A stretch of DNA of 30,520 nucleotides from a virus: positions 1 through 30,520 of IMG/VR virus record IMGVR_UViG_3300029319_000308; one strand, written 5' to 3'. A model generated the notes under the pieces. That model was not told where the DNA came from. It saw nothing but the letters and a program-made list of their open reading frames with translations, and did not search any database. The translations under genes were made by a program, and so were the position numbers. Below are positions 173-10,858 of this stretch, one piece after another (position 1 is the first letter of the stretch; each line of letters opens with the position of its first letter).

Positions 173-204
173 ATTATACTATATTTATCGTCAAAATCAA
201 GGGG
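173..204 (-). promoter_or_regulatory. Class I leftward sigma70 promoter
   Basis: On the minus strand, CCCC is followed by TTGATT (195-200), a 16-bp spacer and TATAAT (173-178). The predicted transcription start is near 166. It has the same layout as four other leftward promoters in the window, with two mismatches in the -35 box. Confidence 0.75.
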
Positions 205-220
205 TATCTTCAGTCTTTTT

Positions 221-324
221 CAAACTTTTTTAGAATCGTCATAAGTCGTTGGTATCAAAGGAGTTAGGGGCGGCGGGGGCGGCCCCGCTCGCCCTAAGTC
301 GTTGCGGGGTAAGGGTTTACGTCG
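221..324. repeat. Tripartite hairpin repeat, copy A
   Basis: The flank at 221-241 resembles copies B and C. A first unit TAAGTCGTT-N7-AAGGAGTTA lies at 242-266. A GC hairpin follows with stem GCGGGG/CCCCGC (273-288), extended outward by five more GC pairs past a one-base bulge. A second unit TAAGTCGTT-N7-AAGGGTTTA lies at 295-319. The element starts four bases after the stop of the gene at 328-621 and ends about 20 bp before the next leftward promoter. It may be a terminator, an RNA-processing site or a protein-binding element. No U-tract follows the GC stem directly. Confidence 0.8.
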
Positions 325-327
325 ATT

Positions 328-621
328 TCAGTAGGGAAGAGATCCTTCCACTATTCCACCATGAGCCTCAAACTCTCGCTCGAATACTTCGCGAGGAACG
401 TAAGGGTACACGGTGTCGCATGGGTCTTTGAATTCCCCACCTTCCATGTACTCCAGCAATTCCTTGCCGGGGATCATAGTAGGGAATCCACCCTCCATGT
501 GGCTATGCGGTCCCGCATCTGTTCGCGGTGTACAATAACTTCCCCAATCTCCAGCAGCCTGAACAGACATTGAGAAGCCATCGGCACAAACAATTCTTGG
601 ATTGTGAACTCTTTCACGCAT
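328..621 (-). CDS. Hypothetical protein, 97 aa
   Basis: I do not recognise a named family, although the stretch around residues 13-33 (SMSVQAAG, then YCTPRTDAGP) looks like small conserved proteins seen in other tailed phages. There is no signal peptide or membrane segment. The start at 621 is preceded by AGGG nine bases upstream. It is the last of three genes in the unit driven by the promoter at 1040-1067, ten bases after the acidic protein gene at 632-805. Repeat A follows the stop by four bases. It is probably an early accessory protein; its role is unknown. Confidence 0.8.
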   Translation of the reverse strand: MRERVHNPRIVCADGFSMSVQAAGDWGSYCTPRTDAGPHSHMEGGFPTMIPGKELLEYMEGGEFKDPCDTVYPYVPREVFEREFEAHGGIVEGSLPY

Positions 622-631
622 AATAAAAACC

Positions 632-805
632 CTAAAAAGGAAACTCTAAATCATCAAGCAAATCATCGTAATCGCCATCATCCTCGTGGGCTGTTGGCTC
701 TTCGTCGTCGAGATATTGCCGTTCTTCTTCTTCGGCAATCATTCTCAGATCTTCGTGGTAATTATCCTCTGCGGGATACCAGCAATCGTCAAACTCGTCG
801 TACAT
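632..805 (-). CDS. Small, extremely acidic protein, 57 aa
   Basis: About 25 of 57 residues are Asp or Glu. There are two Arg and no Lys, so the net charge is near -23. No domain is recognised. The start at 805 is chosen over an in-frame ATG six bases earlier, because AGGAG sits seven bases before this ATG and only one base before the other. That AGGAG overlaps the stop codon of the upstream acidic protein gene (816-1001), so the two are probably translationally coupled. The composition recalls phage DNA-mimic anti-restriction proteins such as Ocr, but there is no sequence similarity to support this. It may simply bind a basic host protein. Confidence 0.75.
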   Translation of the reverse strand: MYDEFDDCWYPAEDNYHEDLRMIAEEEERQYLDDEEPTAHEDDGDYDDLLDDLEFPF

Positions 806-815
806 GGTCATTCTC

Positions 816-1001
816 CTACCAAGGGGTGTTAGTGTCAATTTCTTCAAAACCACGGTCGGAATCGGGATCTTCGTCCCAATCATCATCGCCGTGATCGTAC
901 CCGATGGAATCGAGGTAATCGGCGTACTCGGCCAAATCCTCTGCGGTGGGGCGATAGTCAACGAATTCGTCGGACTGGATTTGAGAGAGAAAATCGTTCA
1001 T
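816..1001 (-). CDS. Small acidic protein, 61 aa
   Basis: About a third of the residues are Asp or Glu, concentrated between residues 36 and 56. The first 30 residues could form helices (TAEDLAEYADYLDSIGYD). No catalytic motif or membrane segment is seen. It is the first gene after the promoter at 1040-1067. Its ~32-nt leader, containing GAAAGG, is nearly identical to the leader of the gene at 1805-2239. Its TAG stop forms part of the ribosome site of the next acidic gene. The function is unknown; it is plausibly a DNA mimic or inhibitor of a host protein. Confidence 0.8.
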   Translation of the reverse strand: MNDFLSQIQSDEFVDYRPTAEDLAEYADYLDSIGYDHGDDDWDEDPDSDRGFEEIDTNTPW

Positions 1002-1038
1002 GGTAAACCTTTCAAAAGTGTTGTGACTTGTATGCCTT
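1002..1038 (-). promoter_or_regulatory. Conserved 5' leader, copy 1
   Basis: Read leftward, the leader carries GGCATACAA, then CACAACACTTTTGAAAGGTT just before the start codon. Almost the same ~37 bases precede the gene at 1805-2239 (2240-2276). The GAAAGG serves as ribosome site. Conservation of the whole leader between unrelated genes suggests a function beyond the ribosome site. Confidence 0.7.
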
Positions 1039-1039
1039 G

Positions 1040-1071
1040 ATTATATAGTATATATCGGCATTGTCAAGGGG
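1040..1071 (-). promoter_or_regulatory. Class I leftward sigma70 promoter
   Basis: CCCC precedes a perfect TTGACA (1062-1067), then a 16-bp spacer and a perfect TATAAT (1040-1045). The predicted start is near 1033, giving a 32-nt leader to the gene at 816-1001. Confidence 0.88.
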
Positions 1072-1080
1072 TGTCATGAG

Positions 1081-1130
1081 AAAAAAAGAAAGTTTTTGGT
1101 AATTGAGTGATTTCGCCAGAGCTTACCAAA
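1081..1130 (-). terminator. Possible leftward terminator
   Basis: TTTGGTAA (1095-1102) and TTACCAAA (1123-1130) form a perfect 8-bp stem with a 20-nt loop. In the leftward transcript a U-rich run (1081-1090) follows the stem by a few bases. It lies between the gene at 1165-1380 and the next promoter. The stem is AT-rich and the loop is large, so activity is uncertain. Confidence 0.4.
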
Positions 1131-1164
1131 CTCCACACCCCGAAGGGCGACGGTCAAGCGATTC

Positions 1165-1380
1165 CTACTCCTCTTCGTCAGAGGGGAACATCTTTTCCCA
1201 GCACGTTGGGCACGTACCAGAAATAAGAAGTTCTCGCATATCCGCTGATAGCTCAGGAAGAGCATCTTGGATATACTCGCCAGCTTGCCAGTTGACAAAA
1301 CCTTCAACGTTAACCGTCAGGTCAGTCACCTCTTGGCAAAGCCGACAAGGAACCGCAACGACTGCTGTCATTGCTAACAT
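1165..1380 (-). CDS. Small Cys4 (putative zinc-binding) protein, 71 aa
   Basis: Two CxxC pairs, C12-x2-C15 and C57-x2-C60, lie near the two ends and could bind one zinc ion as in zinc-ribbon proteins. Between them are an aromatic, hydrophobic stretch (VNVEGFVNWQAGEY) and a predicted helix. The tail is acidic. The promoter at 1387-1414 predicts transcription starting at the A of the ATG at 1380, which would make the mRNA leaderless. An ATG at 1371 sits at a normal distance from AAGGA, but that sequence lies upstream of the predicted transcript start. It is a single-gene unit. The family is unknown; DNA or protein binding is a guess from the Cys4 pattern. Confidence 0.78.
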   Translation of the reverse strand: MLAMTAVVAVPCRLCQEVTDLTVNVEGFVNWQAGEYIQDALPELSADMRELLISGTCPTCWEKMFPSDEEE

Positions 1381-1386
1381 GTCCTT

Positions 1387-1418
1387 ATTATATATTATAT
1401 CGGCAACTTGTCAAGGGG
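1387..1418 (-). promoter_or_regulatory. Class I leftward sigma70 promoter
   Basis: CCCC precedes a perfect TTGACA (1409-1414), then a 16-bp spacer and a perfect TATAAT (1387-1392). Seven bases beyond the -10 is position 1380, the first base of the next gene's ATG. Confidence 0.88.
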
Positions 1419-1445
1419 TTCTGCATCTTTTTATAGAATTATTTT

Positions 1446-1546
1446 AAAAGTTTTCCAGAATCGTCGTAAGTTGTTACTACCAAAGGACTTACGTCGAGCG
1501 GGGGCCGCCCCGCCGACCCTAAGTCGTTACGGGGCAAGGACTTACG
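1446..1546. repeat. Tripartite hairpin repeat, copy B
   Basis: It has the same plan as copies A and C: unit TAAGTTGTT-N7-AAGGACTTA (1467-1491), GC hairpin GCGGGG/CCCCGC (1498-1513), then unit TAAGTCGTT-N7-AAGGACTTA (1520-1544). The GC stem extends through GTCG/CGAC past a one-base bulge on the strand opposite to that in copy A. It lies 12 bases after the stop of the gene at 1558-1803 and about 30 bases before the promoter at 1387-1414. Confidence 0.8.
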
Positions 1547-1557
1547 TTTGTCAACCC

Positions 1558-1803
1558 CTAAACTTTAGGTGAAATCAAATTATCAGGAAAAAATCCTGCG
1601 TTTCCAAACTCTTTTACACAGTGTTGATGAACACCCATAAAAACGGAATCCCGATACGCTTCATCGACCATTTCAATATTGTCTAGCATATCAGACCAGT
1701 CTCGCGGCAACGCATACTCAAAAGCACTCTCCACGATTACATCGGGTGAGACTTTATCAGTAAGTTTGCGAACCATTCTAACCTTCCATAGATCCACATT
1801 CAT
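1558..1803 (-). CDS. Hypothetical protein, 81 aa
   Basis: No family is recognised. The protein is mixed charge and soluble, with helical segments (residues 5-18 and 40-60) and no membrane segment. GGAGG lies nine bases before the ATG, inside the last codons of the upstream gene, whose stop is one base away. The two genes are therefore an operon and probably coupled. Repeat B follows the stop codon. Confidence 0.8.
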   Translation of the reverse strand: MNVDLWKVRMVRKLTDKVSPDVIVESAFEYALPRDWSDMLDNIEMVDEAYRDSVFMGVHQHCVKEFGNAGFFPDNLISPKV

Positions 1804-1804
1804 T

Positions 1805-2239
1805 TTAATCCTCCAAAAGATCGTCAGCTTCGATCAATCCACTGTTTACCATACCGCCAACCAGAGCAATCTGATTTTTGTGCAACTGCAATTCGTCGCA
1901 CTCGTTTTCACTGTAGTCAAACTCTGAATCGAGATCGACAAAATCCGTTCCACCCTTGTGGGTATGGTATTGGGCTTTCGCCTCAAACTGCTTTCGCAGT
2001 CGCTCAATATTGCGAGCCTTAATAGCTTGCTTCTTGACGTGTTCGGTGATACCGTCACGCTTGTCGCACAGTTCTTCCAAACGTGCAAGAGTACGACCAC
2101 CGCGAACCTCATCGTGAAATTCTTCCGGCAAGAGGTGATTCGGAACGGTAATGCACTCAGCGAACGCTTGTCGCAGATCTGCGGTGAGTTCTTCAATGTT
2201 GTTGAAACCGCAGTAGGGTTGGGAAGGATCGTAGTTCAT
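1805..2239 (-). CDS. Hypothetical protein, 144 aa
   Basis: The family is not recognised. The middle (residues 45-85) is rich in charged helices with many Arg and Lys and may form a coiled coil. The C-terminal third is acidic and hydrophobic. The start at 2239 is preferred to an upstream in-frame ATG at 2305, because 2305 lies within the promoter -35 box, whereas GAAAGG sits seven bases before 2239. It is the first gene of a two-gene unit with the 81-aa protein downstream. Early accessory function is inferred from position only. Confidence 0.82.
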   Translation of the reverse strand: MNYDPSQPYCGFNNIEELTADLRQAFAECITVPNHLLPEEFHDEVRGGRTLARLEELCDKRDGITEHVKKQAIKARNIERLRKQFEAKAQYHTHKGGTDFVDLDSEFDYSENECDELQLHKNQIALVGGMVNSGLIEADDLLED

Positions 2240-2276
2240 GTTTAACCTTTCAAAAGTGTTGTGTGTTGTATGCCTA
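2240..2276 (-). promoter_or_regulatory. Conserved 5' leader, copy 2
   Basis: It matches the leader at 1002-1038 over nearly its full length, including CACAACACTTTTGAAAGGTT and GGCATACAA. The two downstream genes are unrelated, so the similarity is in the untranslated region only. Confidence 0.7.
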
Positions 2277-2277
2277 T

Positions 2278-2310
2278 ATTTTAGCATAAGATCTTCATTT
2301 GTCAAGGGGG
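2278..2310 (-). promoter_or_regulatory. Class I leftward sigma70 promoter
   Basis: CCCCC precedes TTGACA (2300-2305), then a 16-bp spacer and TAAAAT (2278-2283). The -35 lies within the last codons of the small gene at 2295-2405. The predicted start near 2271 leaves a 32-nt leader. Confidence 0.82.
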
Positions 2311-2405
2311 TTAAATCCTAAAATCCACATTATGAGCAAAATAATTCCAAGCAATGCCGGAACCATAACAAAGCTCATGAATTCCTGATTATCCAATAAA
2401 TCCAT
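2295..2405 (-). CDS. Tiny membrane protein, 36 aa
   Basis: One strongly hydrophobic segment (residues 12-31, FVMVPALLGIILLIMWILGF) should span the inner membrane. The ATG is preceded by GGAG eight bases upstream, inside the end of the previous small gene. The last four residues, PLDK, are encoded by the next promoter's -35 region, so the C-terminus is constrained by the promoter. The length resembles small phage membrane proteins that act on the host envelope, but no function can be assigned. Confidence 0.6.
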   Translation of the reverse strand: MDLLDNQEFMSFVMVPALLGIILLIMWILGFNPLDK

Positions 2406-2407
2406 AT

Positions 2408-2488
2408 TTATACTCCTGCAACAATGCAACCAAGGACGAAGGCAATCACACAGAGGATGGCCGCTTTTCTTTGTTCTTTCTTGTTCAT
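2408..2488 (-). CDS. Tiny membrane protein, 26 aa
   Basis: A basic N-terminus (MNKKEQRKA) precedes a single hydrophobic segment (residues 9-26), the usual layout of a small inner-membrane protein with its N-terminus in the cytoplasm. AGGAG sits seven bases before the ATG. It is the first gene after the class II promoter at 2512-2544 and ends two bases before the next tiny membrane gene. Its small size limits certainty, but the ribosome site and layout support translation. Confidence 0.6.
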   Translation of the reverse strand: MNKKEQRKAAILCVIAFVLGCIVAGV

Positions 2489-2511
2489 ATCTTTTCTCCT
2501 TTGTTACTTAT

Positions 2512-2544
2512 ATTATCGCCCATACCCGTGACACGTTAGGTCAC
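2512..2544 (-). promoter_or_regulatory. Class II leftward promoter with palindromic operator
   Basis: The palindrome GTGACCTAACGTGTCAC (2528-2544) is followed, 10 bp later on the minus strand, by the -10 box GATAAT (2512-2517). The position where a -35 would fall reads CTAACG, which is not a sigma70 -35. The same arrangement and spacing recur at 3191-3223. A dedicated activator or repressor is implied. Confidence 0.75.
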
Positions 2545-2560
2545 AACCACACAATAAAAT

Positions 2561-2664
2561 AAAAGTTTTTCCAAATCGTTGTAAGTCGTTTGCTGGTAAG
2601 GGTTTACGTCGAGCGAGGCCCGCCTCCCGGCACCTAAGTCCTTACACACCAAGGGTTTACGGCG
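2561..2664. repeat. Tripartite hairpin repeat, copy C
   Basis: Unit TAAGTCGTT-N7-AAGGGTTTA lies at 2582-2606, a weaker GC hairpin GAGG/CCTC at 2615-2626, and unit TAAGTCCTT-N7-AAGGGTTTA at 2635-2659. As plus-strand RNA the last unit pairs over nine positions with two G-U wobbles. The flank AAAAGTTTTT is shared with B. It lies 25 bases after the stop of the gene at 2689-2829 and 17 bases before the class II operator. Confidence 0.78.
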
Positions 2665-2688
2665 ATCCCTATATGTGTCCGTAGGCGG

Positions 2689-2829
2689 CTAGATAGGCTG
2701 ATACCCTAGAATCCACAGAATACCAGCAAGCCCGAACATTGCCGAGATTGCCAATAGTGGGCAGATTATCAGAAGCATGATAAACCAATTAATTACCACA
2801 TCTTTCCAAGATTCTCTATATCTTAACAT
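2689..2829 (-). CDS. Tiny membrane protein, 46 aa
   Basis: The N-terminus is short and charged (MLRYRESWKD). It is followed by a long hydrophobic stretch (residues 12-43) that could cross the membrane once or form a hairpin with a turn at the CP at 23-24. The ATG at 2829 is preceded by AAAGAGA. An ATG four bases upstream in another frame meets a stop at once. It follows the 74-aa gene and has no clear promoter of its own. Function unknown. Confidence 0.55.
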   Translation of the reverse strand: MLRYRESWKDVVINWFIMLLIICPLLAISAMFGLAGILWILGYQPI

Positions 2830-3190: not shown

Positions 3191-3223
3191 ATTATCGCAC
3201 ATGTGTGTGACACGTTAGGTCAC
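3191..3223 (-). promoter_or_regulatory. Class II leftward promoter with palindromic operator
   Basis: The same 17-bp palindrome as at 2528-2544 occupies 3207-3223 and is followed after 10 bp by GATAAT (3191-3196). The palindrome ends one base from the stop codon of the 45-aa gene. The predicted start is near 3184. Confidence 0.75.
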
Positions 3224-3491: not shown

Positions 3492-3520
3492 TTGACGGGG
3501 GTTTTATCTTCTGGTACAAT
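3492..3520 (+). promoter_or_regulatory. Rightward sigma70 promoter of the candidate RNA
   Basis: TTGACG (3492-3497), a 17-bp spacer and TACAAT (3515-3520) on the plus strand. The predicted start is near 3527. No protein-coding gene follows before the hairpin terminator at 3786-3827. Confidence 0.72.
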
Positions 3521-4237: not shown

Positions 4238-4877
4238 TGCCTTTTGTTTGGCACAATTTAAAAATGATAGATACGAAATAGGGCACTGCTCTCTAGACGA
4301 TTGTTGCTTTGACCGAGAAGTAACCGAATTTTTGCGTCAGAACATGAATTCAGAGCGGTGTATAACCAAAACCGTCCCTATCAACGAACAGTTTTTCTTC
4401 TCAATTTTGCTCTATCACAATAAAGTAGAGCAAGAAAAGTGTGACTGCATTGGCACTTTAGAAAAAGATGGCGATAAATACGTCCTAAATATCAAAAAAA
4501 TCGTCGGTGGAGACAAAATCTACCCAGAATCTCATCATAGATTTCTCATCACCTCTTATTTTCCATCTAAAAATTTCTTTAGTGGTGAGTTTTACCGGTC
4601 TGTTCTCACATCAGATGGTGTTATCACACTAGAAGATAACCAAATGATTGGTGTTAAAGATGGTTTGATAGAAGAATTGGACGTTAATGAGATTTTAGAC
4701 ATGCTCTCTAAGGCTAAAACCGAAAAGTCGCCCTCTTACAAGCAGGTAAAGCTGCAATCTTCAAGGAAAAGACCCCCTAGACCCACCAAAGGTACTATTA
4801 TTTACAACGAAGTCGCAGACGAGTTCGAGGTTTATGGTAAAAATGGCTGGAGAAAGCTAAGGACGGAGGAAATTTAA
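4212..4877 (+). CDS. Hypothetical late protein with tail-fibre-like C-terminal motif, 221 aa
   Basis: The body (residues 1-180) is not recognised. The last 30 residues, around GTIIYNEVADEFEVYGKNGW, resemble a short motif that ends or punctuates many phage fibre and neck proteins, so a structural role is plausible. The ATG at 4212 has AAGGA seven bases upstream and is preferred to a GTG at 4185. The stop overlaps the next ATG by one base (TAATG), which implies coupling to the sigma-like gene. This alternative regulatory link cannot be excluded. Confidence 0.75.
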   Translation: MRIRILKNDAFCLAQFKNDRYEIGHCSLDDCCFDREVTEFLRQNMNSERCITKTVPINEQFFFSILLYHNKVEQEKCDCIGTLEKDGDKYVLNIKKIVGGDKIYPESHHRFLITSYFPSKNFFSGEFYRSVLTSDGVITLEDNQMIGVKDGLIEELDVNEILDMLSKAKTEKSPSYKQVKLQSSRKRPPRPTKGTIIYNEVADEFEVYGKNGWRKLRTEEI

Positions 4878-5398
4878 TGAAAATTCCATCAGGAATGACC
4901 GAACAACAGGTTATAGATCAAATTACCGTAGTATGCAATAGAATATCACCCAGATATACATTTTACGGATATACAAATGAAGACATTTGGCAAGAGGCAT
5001 TTATTATTTGTATAGAAGCCCTTAACAGATATGATGAAGCTCGCCCTTTGGAAAACTTTCTGAGTGTAAATCTATCAAACAGACTAAAGACTTTCATGCG
5101 TGACAACTACTTTATCGGGAACTCGAACGAGGCCCGTAAGAAGTTGGCTCAACCGTCACAGTTAGATTACGAAGATAAAATCATTGATTCTGACACAGAA
5201 GAAGAAGGATACGAAGAGTTAGACTTTAAAAACATGGTTGAAGCAATTGACAAGTACATTCCGGCAAGTATCAGAATGGATTATCTTAAAATCATCAATG
5301 ATATTTACATTACAAAACAAAGAAAAGAAGAAGTTATTGGAATCATAAAGGGCATCCTAGAGGAACAAGGGTTCAATGAAGACCGGCAGAATCAGTAA
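4877..5398 (+). CDS. Sigma factor region 2-like protein (gp55-like late sigma candidate), 173 aa
   Basis: Residues 35-75 look like sigma70 region 2. They contain an acidic helix with W38-Q39-E40-A41, then EALNRYDE (47-54), then FLSVNLSNRLKTFMR (61-75), the order seen where sigma binds the core polymerase coiled coil and reads the -10 box. A clear region 4 is missing, as in T4 gp55, which reads -10 only and directs late transcription. GGAGG lies just before the start. It is co-transcribed with packaging genes. If active it would switch host polymerase to the TGTGTATAAT promoters; this is inference. A non-sigma helical protein remains possible. Confidence 0.6.
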   Translation: MKIPSGMTEQQVIDQITVVCNRISPRYTFYGYTNEDIWQEAFIICIEALNRYDEARPLENFLSVNLSNRLKTFMRDNYFIGNSNEARKKLAQPSQLDYEDKIIDSDTEEEGYEELDFKNMVEAIDKYIPASIRMDYLKIINDIYITKQRKEEVIGIIKGILEEQGFNEDRQNQ

Positions 5399-8873: not shown

Positions 8874-10858
8874 AACTAAAAAAGATAAATGAGGCTTGGT
8901 TAAATCTAGATCAGGTAGATGAGAAAGATTTATTTAACCCTATGTCACTAGTTAAAATGAGTGAGGACGATTTTCATTATCGCCTTCTTTGGCTAATGAC
9001 TAGACCGGAGTATTTCTCATTTCTATGCAAGCAAATACTAAACATAAATATCTTACCCTCACAGGCTTTGTTTCTTTGCGAGATGTGGAACCGAAAATTC
9101 CCAATGCTTATCGCTAGTCGTGGTTTTGGTAAGTCTTTCATGCTTTCACTCTATTCTATTTTGAGAGCGTTAATTTTACCAGAAAGAAAAGTTGTAGTTG
9201 TTGGTGCTGCTTTCCGACAATCTAAGGTTCTTTTTGAGTACATGGAAACAATTTGGAACAATGCACCAATCTTGAGGAGTATGTGCGATGCGAGTAGTGG
9301 ACCACGTAGGGATGTGGACCGTTGTGTTATGCGGATTAATAAATCTCGTGTTACTTGCTTACCTCTGGGTGACGGGCAAAAGATTAGAGGTCAGCGTGCT
9401 AATGATATTATATCTGATGAGTTTGCATCTATCCCGCGAGATATTTTCGAGACTGTGGTTGCAGGTTTCGCAGCAGTTAGTTCCGACCCCATTGAAAACG
9501 TTAAAAAGATCGCAGCAAAGAAAAAGGCTGAAGAGTTAGGTCTAGATCTATTCAAAGAAGATGAGAACATCATTAAGAAAAATGACAACCAGATTATCCT
9601 TTCTGGTACGGCGTATTATGATTTCAATCATTTTGCTGAATACTGGAAAAAATGGAAGTCCATTATTCAAAGTCAAGGTAAAAAAAGTAGATTAAGAGAT
9701 ATCTTCGGAGAAGACCCACCGAAAGATTTTAACTGGAAAGACTACTCTATTATTCGTATTCCTTATGAGCTTCTGCCAGAAGGCTTTATGGACGCCTCAC
9801 AGGTCGCCAGATCGAAGGCAACGGTTCACGCTGGTATTTATCAGATGGAGTTCGGAGCGTGCTTTACACGCGATTCTCAAGGCTTTTTCAAGCGTACCCT
9901 GATTGAGTCGTGTGTTACTGACGACAAATATAACGAAAAGCCAGCAATAAAAGATTCACAAGATAACCCTATCTGCTTTCAAGCACAATTACGTGGTGAT
10001 CTTAACAAGAAGTACGTATTTGGTGTTGACCCTGCATCTGAGGTGGATAATTTTAGTATTGTAGTTATAGAATTAAACGGCGACCACAGACGAATTGTTC
10101 ATGTATGGACAACAAACAGAGAGCAGCATAAGGAAAAGGTCAAGAGCGGATATTCTACTGAGTCAGACTTTTACGCCTACTGTGCTAGAAAAATTAGAGA
10201 TCTCATGAAAATCTTCCCATGTGTTCATATTGCTATGGACGCTGGCGGTGGTGGTATTGCCGTTATGGAAAGTTTACATGATAATGATAAGATACAAGAG
10301 GGCGAACATCCAATCTGGGAAATAATCGACGAGAACAACGAAAAGGACACAGATTATAACAGAGGGTTACATATCTTAGAAATGTGCCAATTTTCAAGGT
10401 ATGACTGGCTAGCAGAAGCTAATCATGGAATGAGAAAAGACTTTGAAGACAGAATTTTATTATTTCCAATGTTTGACACCCTTAGTCTTGATATTTCATC
10501 AATTGAGGATGATATGAAAGGTAGATCATATGATACCCTTGAACAATGTGTGATGGAAATTGAGGATCTCAAGGATGAGTTGGCAATGATTCAGATTACT
10601 CAAACAGCAACGGGTCGAGATAAGTGGGATACTCCAGAGACAGTAGTTGGAACAGGAAAAAAGGGTAAACTAAGAAAAGACCGTTACTCTTCTTTACTTA
10701 TGGCTAATATGGCAGCAAGAACAATAGACAGAACTCCAGATGCTGAGACTTACAATTTTTATGGAGGATTTGCAACTGTAGAGAAGTCAAAAGATTCTAC
10801 AGGCAAGCTATATCAAGGTCCACAGTGGTTTACAGATGGTATGAACGGTATTTACTAG
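8870..10858 (+). CDS. terL: Terminase large subunit, 662 aa
   Basis: This motor ATPase and nuclease packages the phage genome. The Walker A motif ASRGFGKS is at 82-89 and Walker B IISDE at 180-184, with Glu184 as catalytic base. The RNase H-like nuclease half has Asp387 in FGVDPASE, Asp457 in AMDAGGGG and a candidate third acid, Asp604, in KDRYSS. The length is at the upper end for terminases, with a charged insertion around 205-235. The start overlaps the ClpP-like stop as ATGA. A late-type promoter follows its stop. Confidence 0.96.
   Translation: MKLKKINEAWLNLDQVDEKDLFNPMSLVKMSEDDFHYRLLWLMTRPEYFSFLCKQILNINILPSQALFLCEMWNRKFPMLIASRGFGKSFMLSLYSILRALILPERKVVVVGAAFRQSKVLFEYMETIWNNAPILRSMCDASSGPRRDVDRCVMRINKSRVTCLPLGDGQKIRGQRANDIISDEFASIPRDIFETVVAGFAAVSSDPIENVKKIAAKKKAEELGLDLFKEDENIIKKNDNQIILSGTAYYDFNHFAEYWKKWKSIIQSQGKKSRLRDIFGEDPPKDFNWKDYSIIRIPYELLPEGFMDASQVARSKATVHAGIYQMEFGACFTRDSQGFFKRTLIESCVTDDKYNEKPAIKDSQDNPICFQAQLRGDLNKKYVFGVDPASEVDNFSIVVIELNGDHRRIVHVWTTNREQHKEKVKSGYSTESDFYAYCARKIRDLMKIFPCVHIAMDAGGGGIAVMESLHDNDKIQEGEHPIWEIIDENNEKDTDYNRGLHILEMCQFSRYDWLAEANHGMRKDFEDRILLFPMFDTLSLDISSIEDDMKGRSYDTLEQCVMEIEDLKDELAMIQITQTATGRDKWDTPETVVGTGKKGKLRKDRYSSLLMANMAARTIDRTPDAETYNFYGGFATVEKSKDSTGKLYQGPQWFTDGMNGIY

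Follow-up and report, generated by a model that had tools for sequence, protein, structure and literature searches.

The window, which is the whole 30.5-kb stretch of DNA analysed, is one record of a phage that has not been cultured. Small genes on the minus strand occupy its first ~3.4 kb and are followed by a plus-strand structural and packaging block with terminase and portal genes. Three elements of ~90 bp each, composed of two dyads and a GC core, lie among the minus-strand genes at 236–325, 1461–1550 and 2576–2665. Every one of them is found 3′ of a minus-strand stop codon (328, 1558 and 2689) and 5′ of the next minus-strand promoter or operator, in agreement with the three copies, the placement and the spacing reported in an earlier note made from the sequence. 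The features are as follows, with dyad scores from a position weight matrix (PWM), promoters and operator read from the sequence, and the adjoining open reading frames (ORFs).

173–200, minus strand: promoter after copy 1 (−35 TTGATT at 195–200, −10 TATAAT at 173–178)
236–272, minus strand: copy 1, promoter-side dyad (PWM score 31.0; unit at 242–266)
273–288, minus strand: copy 1, GC core GCGGGGGCGGCCCCGC (16/16 G+C)
289–325, minus strand: copy 1, stop-codon-side dyad (PWM score 37.4), ending 2 bases from the stop at 328
328–621, minus strand: 97-aa ORF, stop 2 bases before copy 1
1387–1414, minus strand: promoter after copy 2 (−35 TTGACA at 1409–1414, −10 TATAAT at 1387–1392)
1461–1497, minus strand: copy 2, promoter-side dyad (PWM score 39.0)
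1498–1513, minus strand: copy 2, GC core GCGGGGGCCGCCCCGC (16/16 G+C)
1514–1550, minus strand: copy 2, stop-codon-side dyad (PWM score 30.2)
1558–1803, minus strand: 81-aa ORF ending just before copy 2
2512–2544, minus strand: after copy 3, operator GTGACCTAACGTGTCA (2529–2544) and −10-like GATAAT (2512–2517)
2576–2612, minus strand: copy 3, promoter-side dyad (PWM score 36.4)
2613–2628, minus strand: copy 3, GC core GCGAGGCCCGCCTCCC (14/16 G+C)
2629–2665, minus strand: copy 3, stop-codon-side dyad (PWM score 33.1)
2689–2829, minus strand: 46-aa hydrophobic ORF ending 23 bases before copy 3

Each dyad spans 37 bp and consists of a 15-bp half-site, an N7 spacer and the inverted half-site, the two dyad starts being 53 bp apart within each window element. 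The TAAGTCGTT-N7-AAGGRYTTA unit that the earlier note had described was recovered with 0–1 mismatch in all six places (242–266/295–319, 1467–1491/1520–1544 and 2582–2606/2635–2659), while the same pattern read backwards gave 0 matches in this sequence. The arms are indeed present but longer than had been described: the half-site consensus, derived from 83 copies, is the 15-bp TnGnCGTAAGTCSTT, which occurs four times per element. A PWM of this half-site returns exactly six dyads in the window (scores 30–39), with the seventh-best place scoring 1.5 and no dyads in 30 shuffled windows. Three further claims were borne out in the window copies, namely that the N7 spacers vary while the arms are constant, that G+C content lies far above the surroundings (14–16/16 in the 16-bp centre, 0.40–0.47 in the flanks), and that a bulge switches strand. 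The last of these reflects the core at the element centre, GGC(CC or GG)GCC, for which some copies have GGC-CC-GCC and others the reverse complement, GGC-GG-GCC.

The element is widespread and genuine. Nearly 600 copies, partly overlapping, are present in the phage loci collected, which belong to two terminase lineages; what rests on the exact-pattern scan of IMG/VR holds among the matches listed. The pattern occurs in 47 of 50 phage records tested (reversed-pattern control essentially 0), and a scan of phage genome pieces with the half-site weight matrix yields about 260 dyads, against 0 when the pieces are reversed. A homologue of the window's terminase is found in 39/45 element-bearing records, at 52–99% identity in one lineage and 22–32% in the other. 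There is one main array per genome examined, with 7–18 elements over 7–23 kb in 12 phage records besides the window (for example 18 elements at 161–181 kb of a 230-kb genome), at a density of approximately one element per 1–1.3 kb. Now and then a record also has a stray element away from the main array. The earlier suggestion that more copies lie left of the window appears probable, as 9 elements are spread over 11 kb in the relative G012, whose terminase is 99% identical. The outcome which the earlier note had named as speaking against its proposal, that related phages would hold no other copies at unit boundaries, is decisively contradicted, such copies being abundant.

Outside these phages we found little that resembles the element or its carriers. 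The terminase, compared against 50,697 phage records, has matches all below 60% identity (22–25% among the matches listed, the best being Microcystis and Bacillus phages), and the capsid protein has no match in isolated phages. No full element copy was found in isolated phages by blastn, which returned short chance matches only, and an Rfam 15 scan of the window gave no family at the gathering threshold. Among 50 stretches of bacterial genomes scanned, the double dyad occurs only on short phage-like MAG contigs. Single palindromic matches in bacterial chromosomes look like chance hairpins or terminators, and were set aside. As far as could be checked, the element has not been filed previously.

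None of 143 elements lies inside a called gene, and their junctions are tandem in 103 cases, convergent in 11 and divergent in 9; the 20 at convergent or divergent junctions count against a boundary reading. Of the 88 double-dyad elements that lie between tandem genes, 54 are followed by a sigma70-type promoter no more than 160 bp downstream (13% expected) and 6 have one upstream, with none opposite in direction. In 28/88, no more than 15 bp separate the preceding stop codon from the first half-site, or the stop lies inside it. Distances from element to −35 are mostly 20–60 bp (range 12 to 124 bp), and the 35 bp between copy 1 and its promoter is also the commonest distance in relatives. Promoter type after the element varies (sigma70, sigma54-like or operator type), and the operator GTGACCTAACGTGTCA recurs in relatives' arrays, the reversed control giving 0 in nearly all records. 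Read in the direction of transcription, the consensus lacks symmetry: the first half-site is of TAAACCCTT type, the centre GGCGGGCC and the last half-site AACGACTTACG. The three window copies conform to this pattern of position and direction, and the copies at boundaries in related phages support the earlier notion of an operon-end or insulator-type element.

High copy number, together with precise presence or absence between relatives, might suggest a passive repeat (MITE- or REP-like) or recombinogenic homology that spreads among phages with no bound factor. We find this most improbable, given a half-site kept across lineages whose terminases are only 22–32% identical, fixed half-sites next to variable spacers, an orientation consistent with transcription and the avoidance of genes.

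The location directly upstream of promoters, directional with transcription, and the single half-site sequence used throughout an array would also suit one regulator switching the whole array from many sites, be they operators, upstream activating or repressing sites, or stoperators. The stoperators of cluster A mycobacteriophages such as L5 are many protein-recognised sites in short intergenic spaces, whose orientation follows transcription and which are proposed to stop elongation; each is a lone asymmetric site of 13 bp, recognised by the phage immunity repressor as a monomer, and they are scattered genome-wide (PMC9283540). The present element shares the correlation of orientation with transcription, but has two dyads and a GC hairpin and is confined to one main array. 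Moreover, a −35 distance of 12 to 124 bp and the varied promoter types are unlike an activator site, and plain terminators occupy the slot in relatives (see below). A regulator site thus seems unlikely.

Is the element read as RNA or as DNA? The earlier note described a tripartite hairpin, and arms selected as RNA stems should covary. Flanking-arm covariation, whether modelled as a three-hairpin structure or as one long hairpin, was 0.151 against a shuffled mean of 0.150–0.151, and an independent association analysis of 83 copies gave no arm association or a slightly negative one. In all four spacing classes, real elements folded less stably than ones with half-sites dealt at random, and neither strand was clearly favoured in folding. 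In copies aligned by direction of transcription, positions that are G-U wobbles on the antisense strand are A-C/C-A mismatches on the sense strand. The centre behaves differently: the GC helix covaries, with double changes above all shuffles (0/500), and pairing at the symmetry axis exceeds permutation in three spacing classes (z 2.6/2.5/3.8). Only the central GC helix, therefore, behaves as a structural stem, and of the proposed tripartite hairpin this part stands while the flanking arms are instead four copies of one half-site.

An RNA element, in which three hairpins at the mRNA 3′ end serve as terminator, RNase processing site or 3′ stabiliser, would account for the location directly after stop codons, for the covarying core and for the intrinsic terminators that take its place in relatives. 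It is nevertheless improbable in view of arms that do not covary, of folds less stable than in half-site-permuted elements, of the sense-strand mismatches and of the missing U-tract, every consensus being free of a T-run after the core. It also leaves unaccounted the dyad spacing classes (41–42 and 50–53 bp), which are about one helical turn apart and suggest helical phasing. By sequence, the element presents two directional dyads on nearly the same helix face around a GC-rich core. Because the arms show no covariation, real elements fold less stably than permuted ones, the dyads fall into these spacing classes and one half-site is repeated four times, we favour protein-bound DNA over RNA stems for the arms, which is the option of the earlier note that fits them best. 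The simplest reading would be a protein on double-stranded half-sites that flank a small hairpin.

What the element does is suggested mainly by relatives that hold intrinsic terminators in the same slots. Dyads are absent from relatives whose array-adjacent gene is 65–68% identical. Two such relatives have terminators in the equivalent slots, each shortly before a promoter: six of the form A6-G3-(GGG|CCC)-C3-T6 in L327, and CCGGG..CCCGG-T7 hairpins in L330. At two homologous slots with 82% identical flanks, L103 and L331 have dyads where L082 and L166 have apparent A-tract/GC/T-tract terminators. This comparison covers few lineages, and the element-lacking genomes may be incomplete. Intrinsic (bidirectional) terminators resemble the element in their GC stem with a G/C loop and differ from it in that the element has flanking half-sites in place of A- or T-tracts. 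Dyad slots held no extra intrinsic terminators above background (5/73 vs 5%). Taken together, these replacements point to an element that does a terminator's job.

The element also appears to travel with its promoter. In L122, a 155-bp element-plus-promoter module fills precisely the gap from a stop codon to the Shine-Dalgarno sequence of the gene that follows, and the two genes flanking it abut in L284 and L041, so that presence or absence of the module would split or fuse an operon. Relatives differ in which genes lie between their elements, and this holds even for the window and the relative nearest to it. Of known systems, the PeSL (promoter-early stem-loop) modules of T4-type phages, reportedly described by Arbiol et al. 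in 2010 and Comeau et al. in 2014, are comparable; their terminator part is a simple stem-loop. PeSLs are promoter-terminator motifs that mediate modular shuffling (PMC4503421). Both are intergenic boundary elements forming a module with an early promoter between small early genes, in shuffling-dense regions and with precise presence or absence. The element described here differs in that its GC core is flanked by 15-bp half-sites, four in all and paired across N7 spacers, and in that it lacks a U-tract; neither terminase nor capsid places the present phages near T4.

The same arrangement, a half-site/N7/half-site unit twice around a hairpin, could be a site-specific recombination site, integron attC-like or Xer-like, with the dyad as a recombinase core with a 7-bp overlap and the array as gene cassettes. 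As in attC, two simple sites with spacers surround a variable terminal structure after each small array gene. Each genome has one array with about one element per gene or two, the stop codon lies close by (≤15 bp in 28/88), and inter-element genes differ among relatives. The attC half-site, however, is RYYYAAC/GTTRRRY, from which the present one differs, and each unit here contains a promoter. Pairing of the R″/R′ and L″/L′ type is not supported, as long-hairpin covariation equals that of shuffles. Homology break points are only modestly enriched at elements (18% vs 12%), and the clean presence/absence case in L122 moves element and promoter, not a gene. Finally, none of 37 element-bearing records matches the PF00589 tyrosine recombinase family, in a search whose control gave matches in 14/14 genomes; a serine or novel recombinase, or a host-supplied Xer, would be a conceivable alternative. 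On balance, a recombination site seems quite unlikely.

A phylogenetic profile across genomes with and without the element yielded no protein family that tracks its presence, and neither a conserved 140-aa nuclease-like protein nor the SSB, PhoH, primase, DnaB and sigma-factor families did so. A GT4-type glycosyltransferase tracked the elements by blastp, yet profiles found it in element-lacking genomes, and it is not plausible as the binder. Possibly the reader is a host protein, or a phage protein that is kept also in element-lacking relatives.

On the above evidence we put a probability of roughly 0.55 on the element being a transcription-unit boundary, an insulator or terminator, that a large clade of uncultured phages uses in its array of early-type genes. 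It counts against this reading that the half-sites and their N7 spacers may belong to a different system. In its most likely form it would be a protein-bound insulator/terminator with a GC-hairpin core, carried with a promoter as a module. We postulate that a DNA-binding protein, of phage or host, acts on the half-sites as a roadblock, and that the GC core, once transcribed, forms a hairpin that helps to stop or release RNA polymerase; read-through of one unit would in this way be kept from disturbing the next. Since the modules are alike, recombination between them could shuffle the small genes of the array. More tentatively, the element may be a factor-dependent terminator/insulator of new design, in which protein on four phased half-sites stalls RNA polymerase and the GC core is the release hairpin that replaces a U-tract, the whole being kept across two deeply separated lineages and moved as a plug-in with its promoter.

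If the boundary reading is true, abundant uncultured phages separate their early genes by a protein-read boundary element that Rfam (for the window) and the isolated-phage collection have missed. Termination reliant on a bound protein could then be put to the test here. At the same loci there would be a natural set of boundary parts, protein-bound or intrinsic, that can stand in for one another, and the element would explain in concrete terms how genes are shuffled in the hypervariable regions of phages.

A sigma54-like motif, TTGGCAYnnnnnTTGC, lies within 160 bp downstream of many of the double-dyad elements, including those in the arrays of the phage records G016 and G030 and others elsewhere (e.g. 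at 9046 of locus L272). When the 160 bp downstream of 88 elements with tandem neighbour genes were scanned, the motif was oriented toward the element in 17, often 9 bp away, and directed away from it in 7, the chance expectation being 1.4% per 160 bp. The motif is a candidate for either an antisense promoter reading into the boundary or a site for another protein.

Further features in or near the arrays, and one in a terminase gene, are as follows.

Minus strand of the window, at 2529-2544 and 3208-3223: motif GTGACCTAACGTGTCA, which resembles an operator
Window 3497-3510: array-edge motif GGGGGTTTTATCTT
Window 4877-5398: gene adjoining the array
Window 1549-1554, L330 boundaries and L211 460: bare TTGACA
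G035 L264:1123-1545: homologue of mycobacteriophage L5 gp82 (PF25735 family match)
G024:C1:24291-27464: 1065-aa open frame with terminase large subunit, matched in two pieces

At both window sites GTGACCTAACGTGTCA occupies the position of the -35 box. In a motif scan of the records it was also carried by the G035 and G041 arrays and was rare outside them, with reversed-sequence controls of 0 in nearly all records. The array-edge motif recurs in similar form in the relatives L174/L204 and G022.

The G035 relative of the gene adjoining the array has sigma-70 region 2 only, and sigma region 4 is present in further proteins encoded by other genomes of the clade. Homologues of L5 gp82 lie within or close to the arrays in several of these phages, and occur in phages with and without dyads alike. 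In G024, the two terminase pieces (82% and 70% identity) fall inside a single open frame, which suggests that this large subunit carries an intein.

Lastly, several boundary elements or terminators, among them boundaries in L330, a relative lacking dyads, are immediately adjoined by a -35 box (TTGACA) without any -10, as if promoters had been severed through module exchange.
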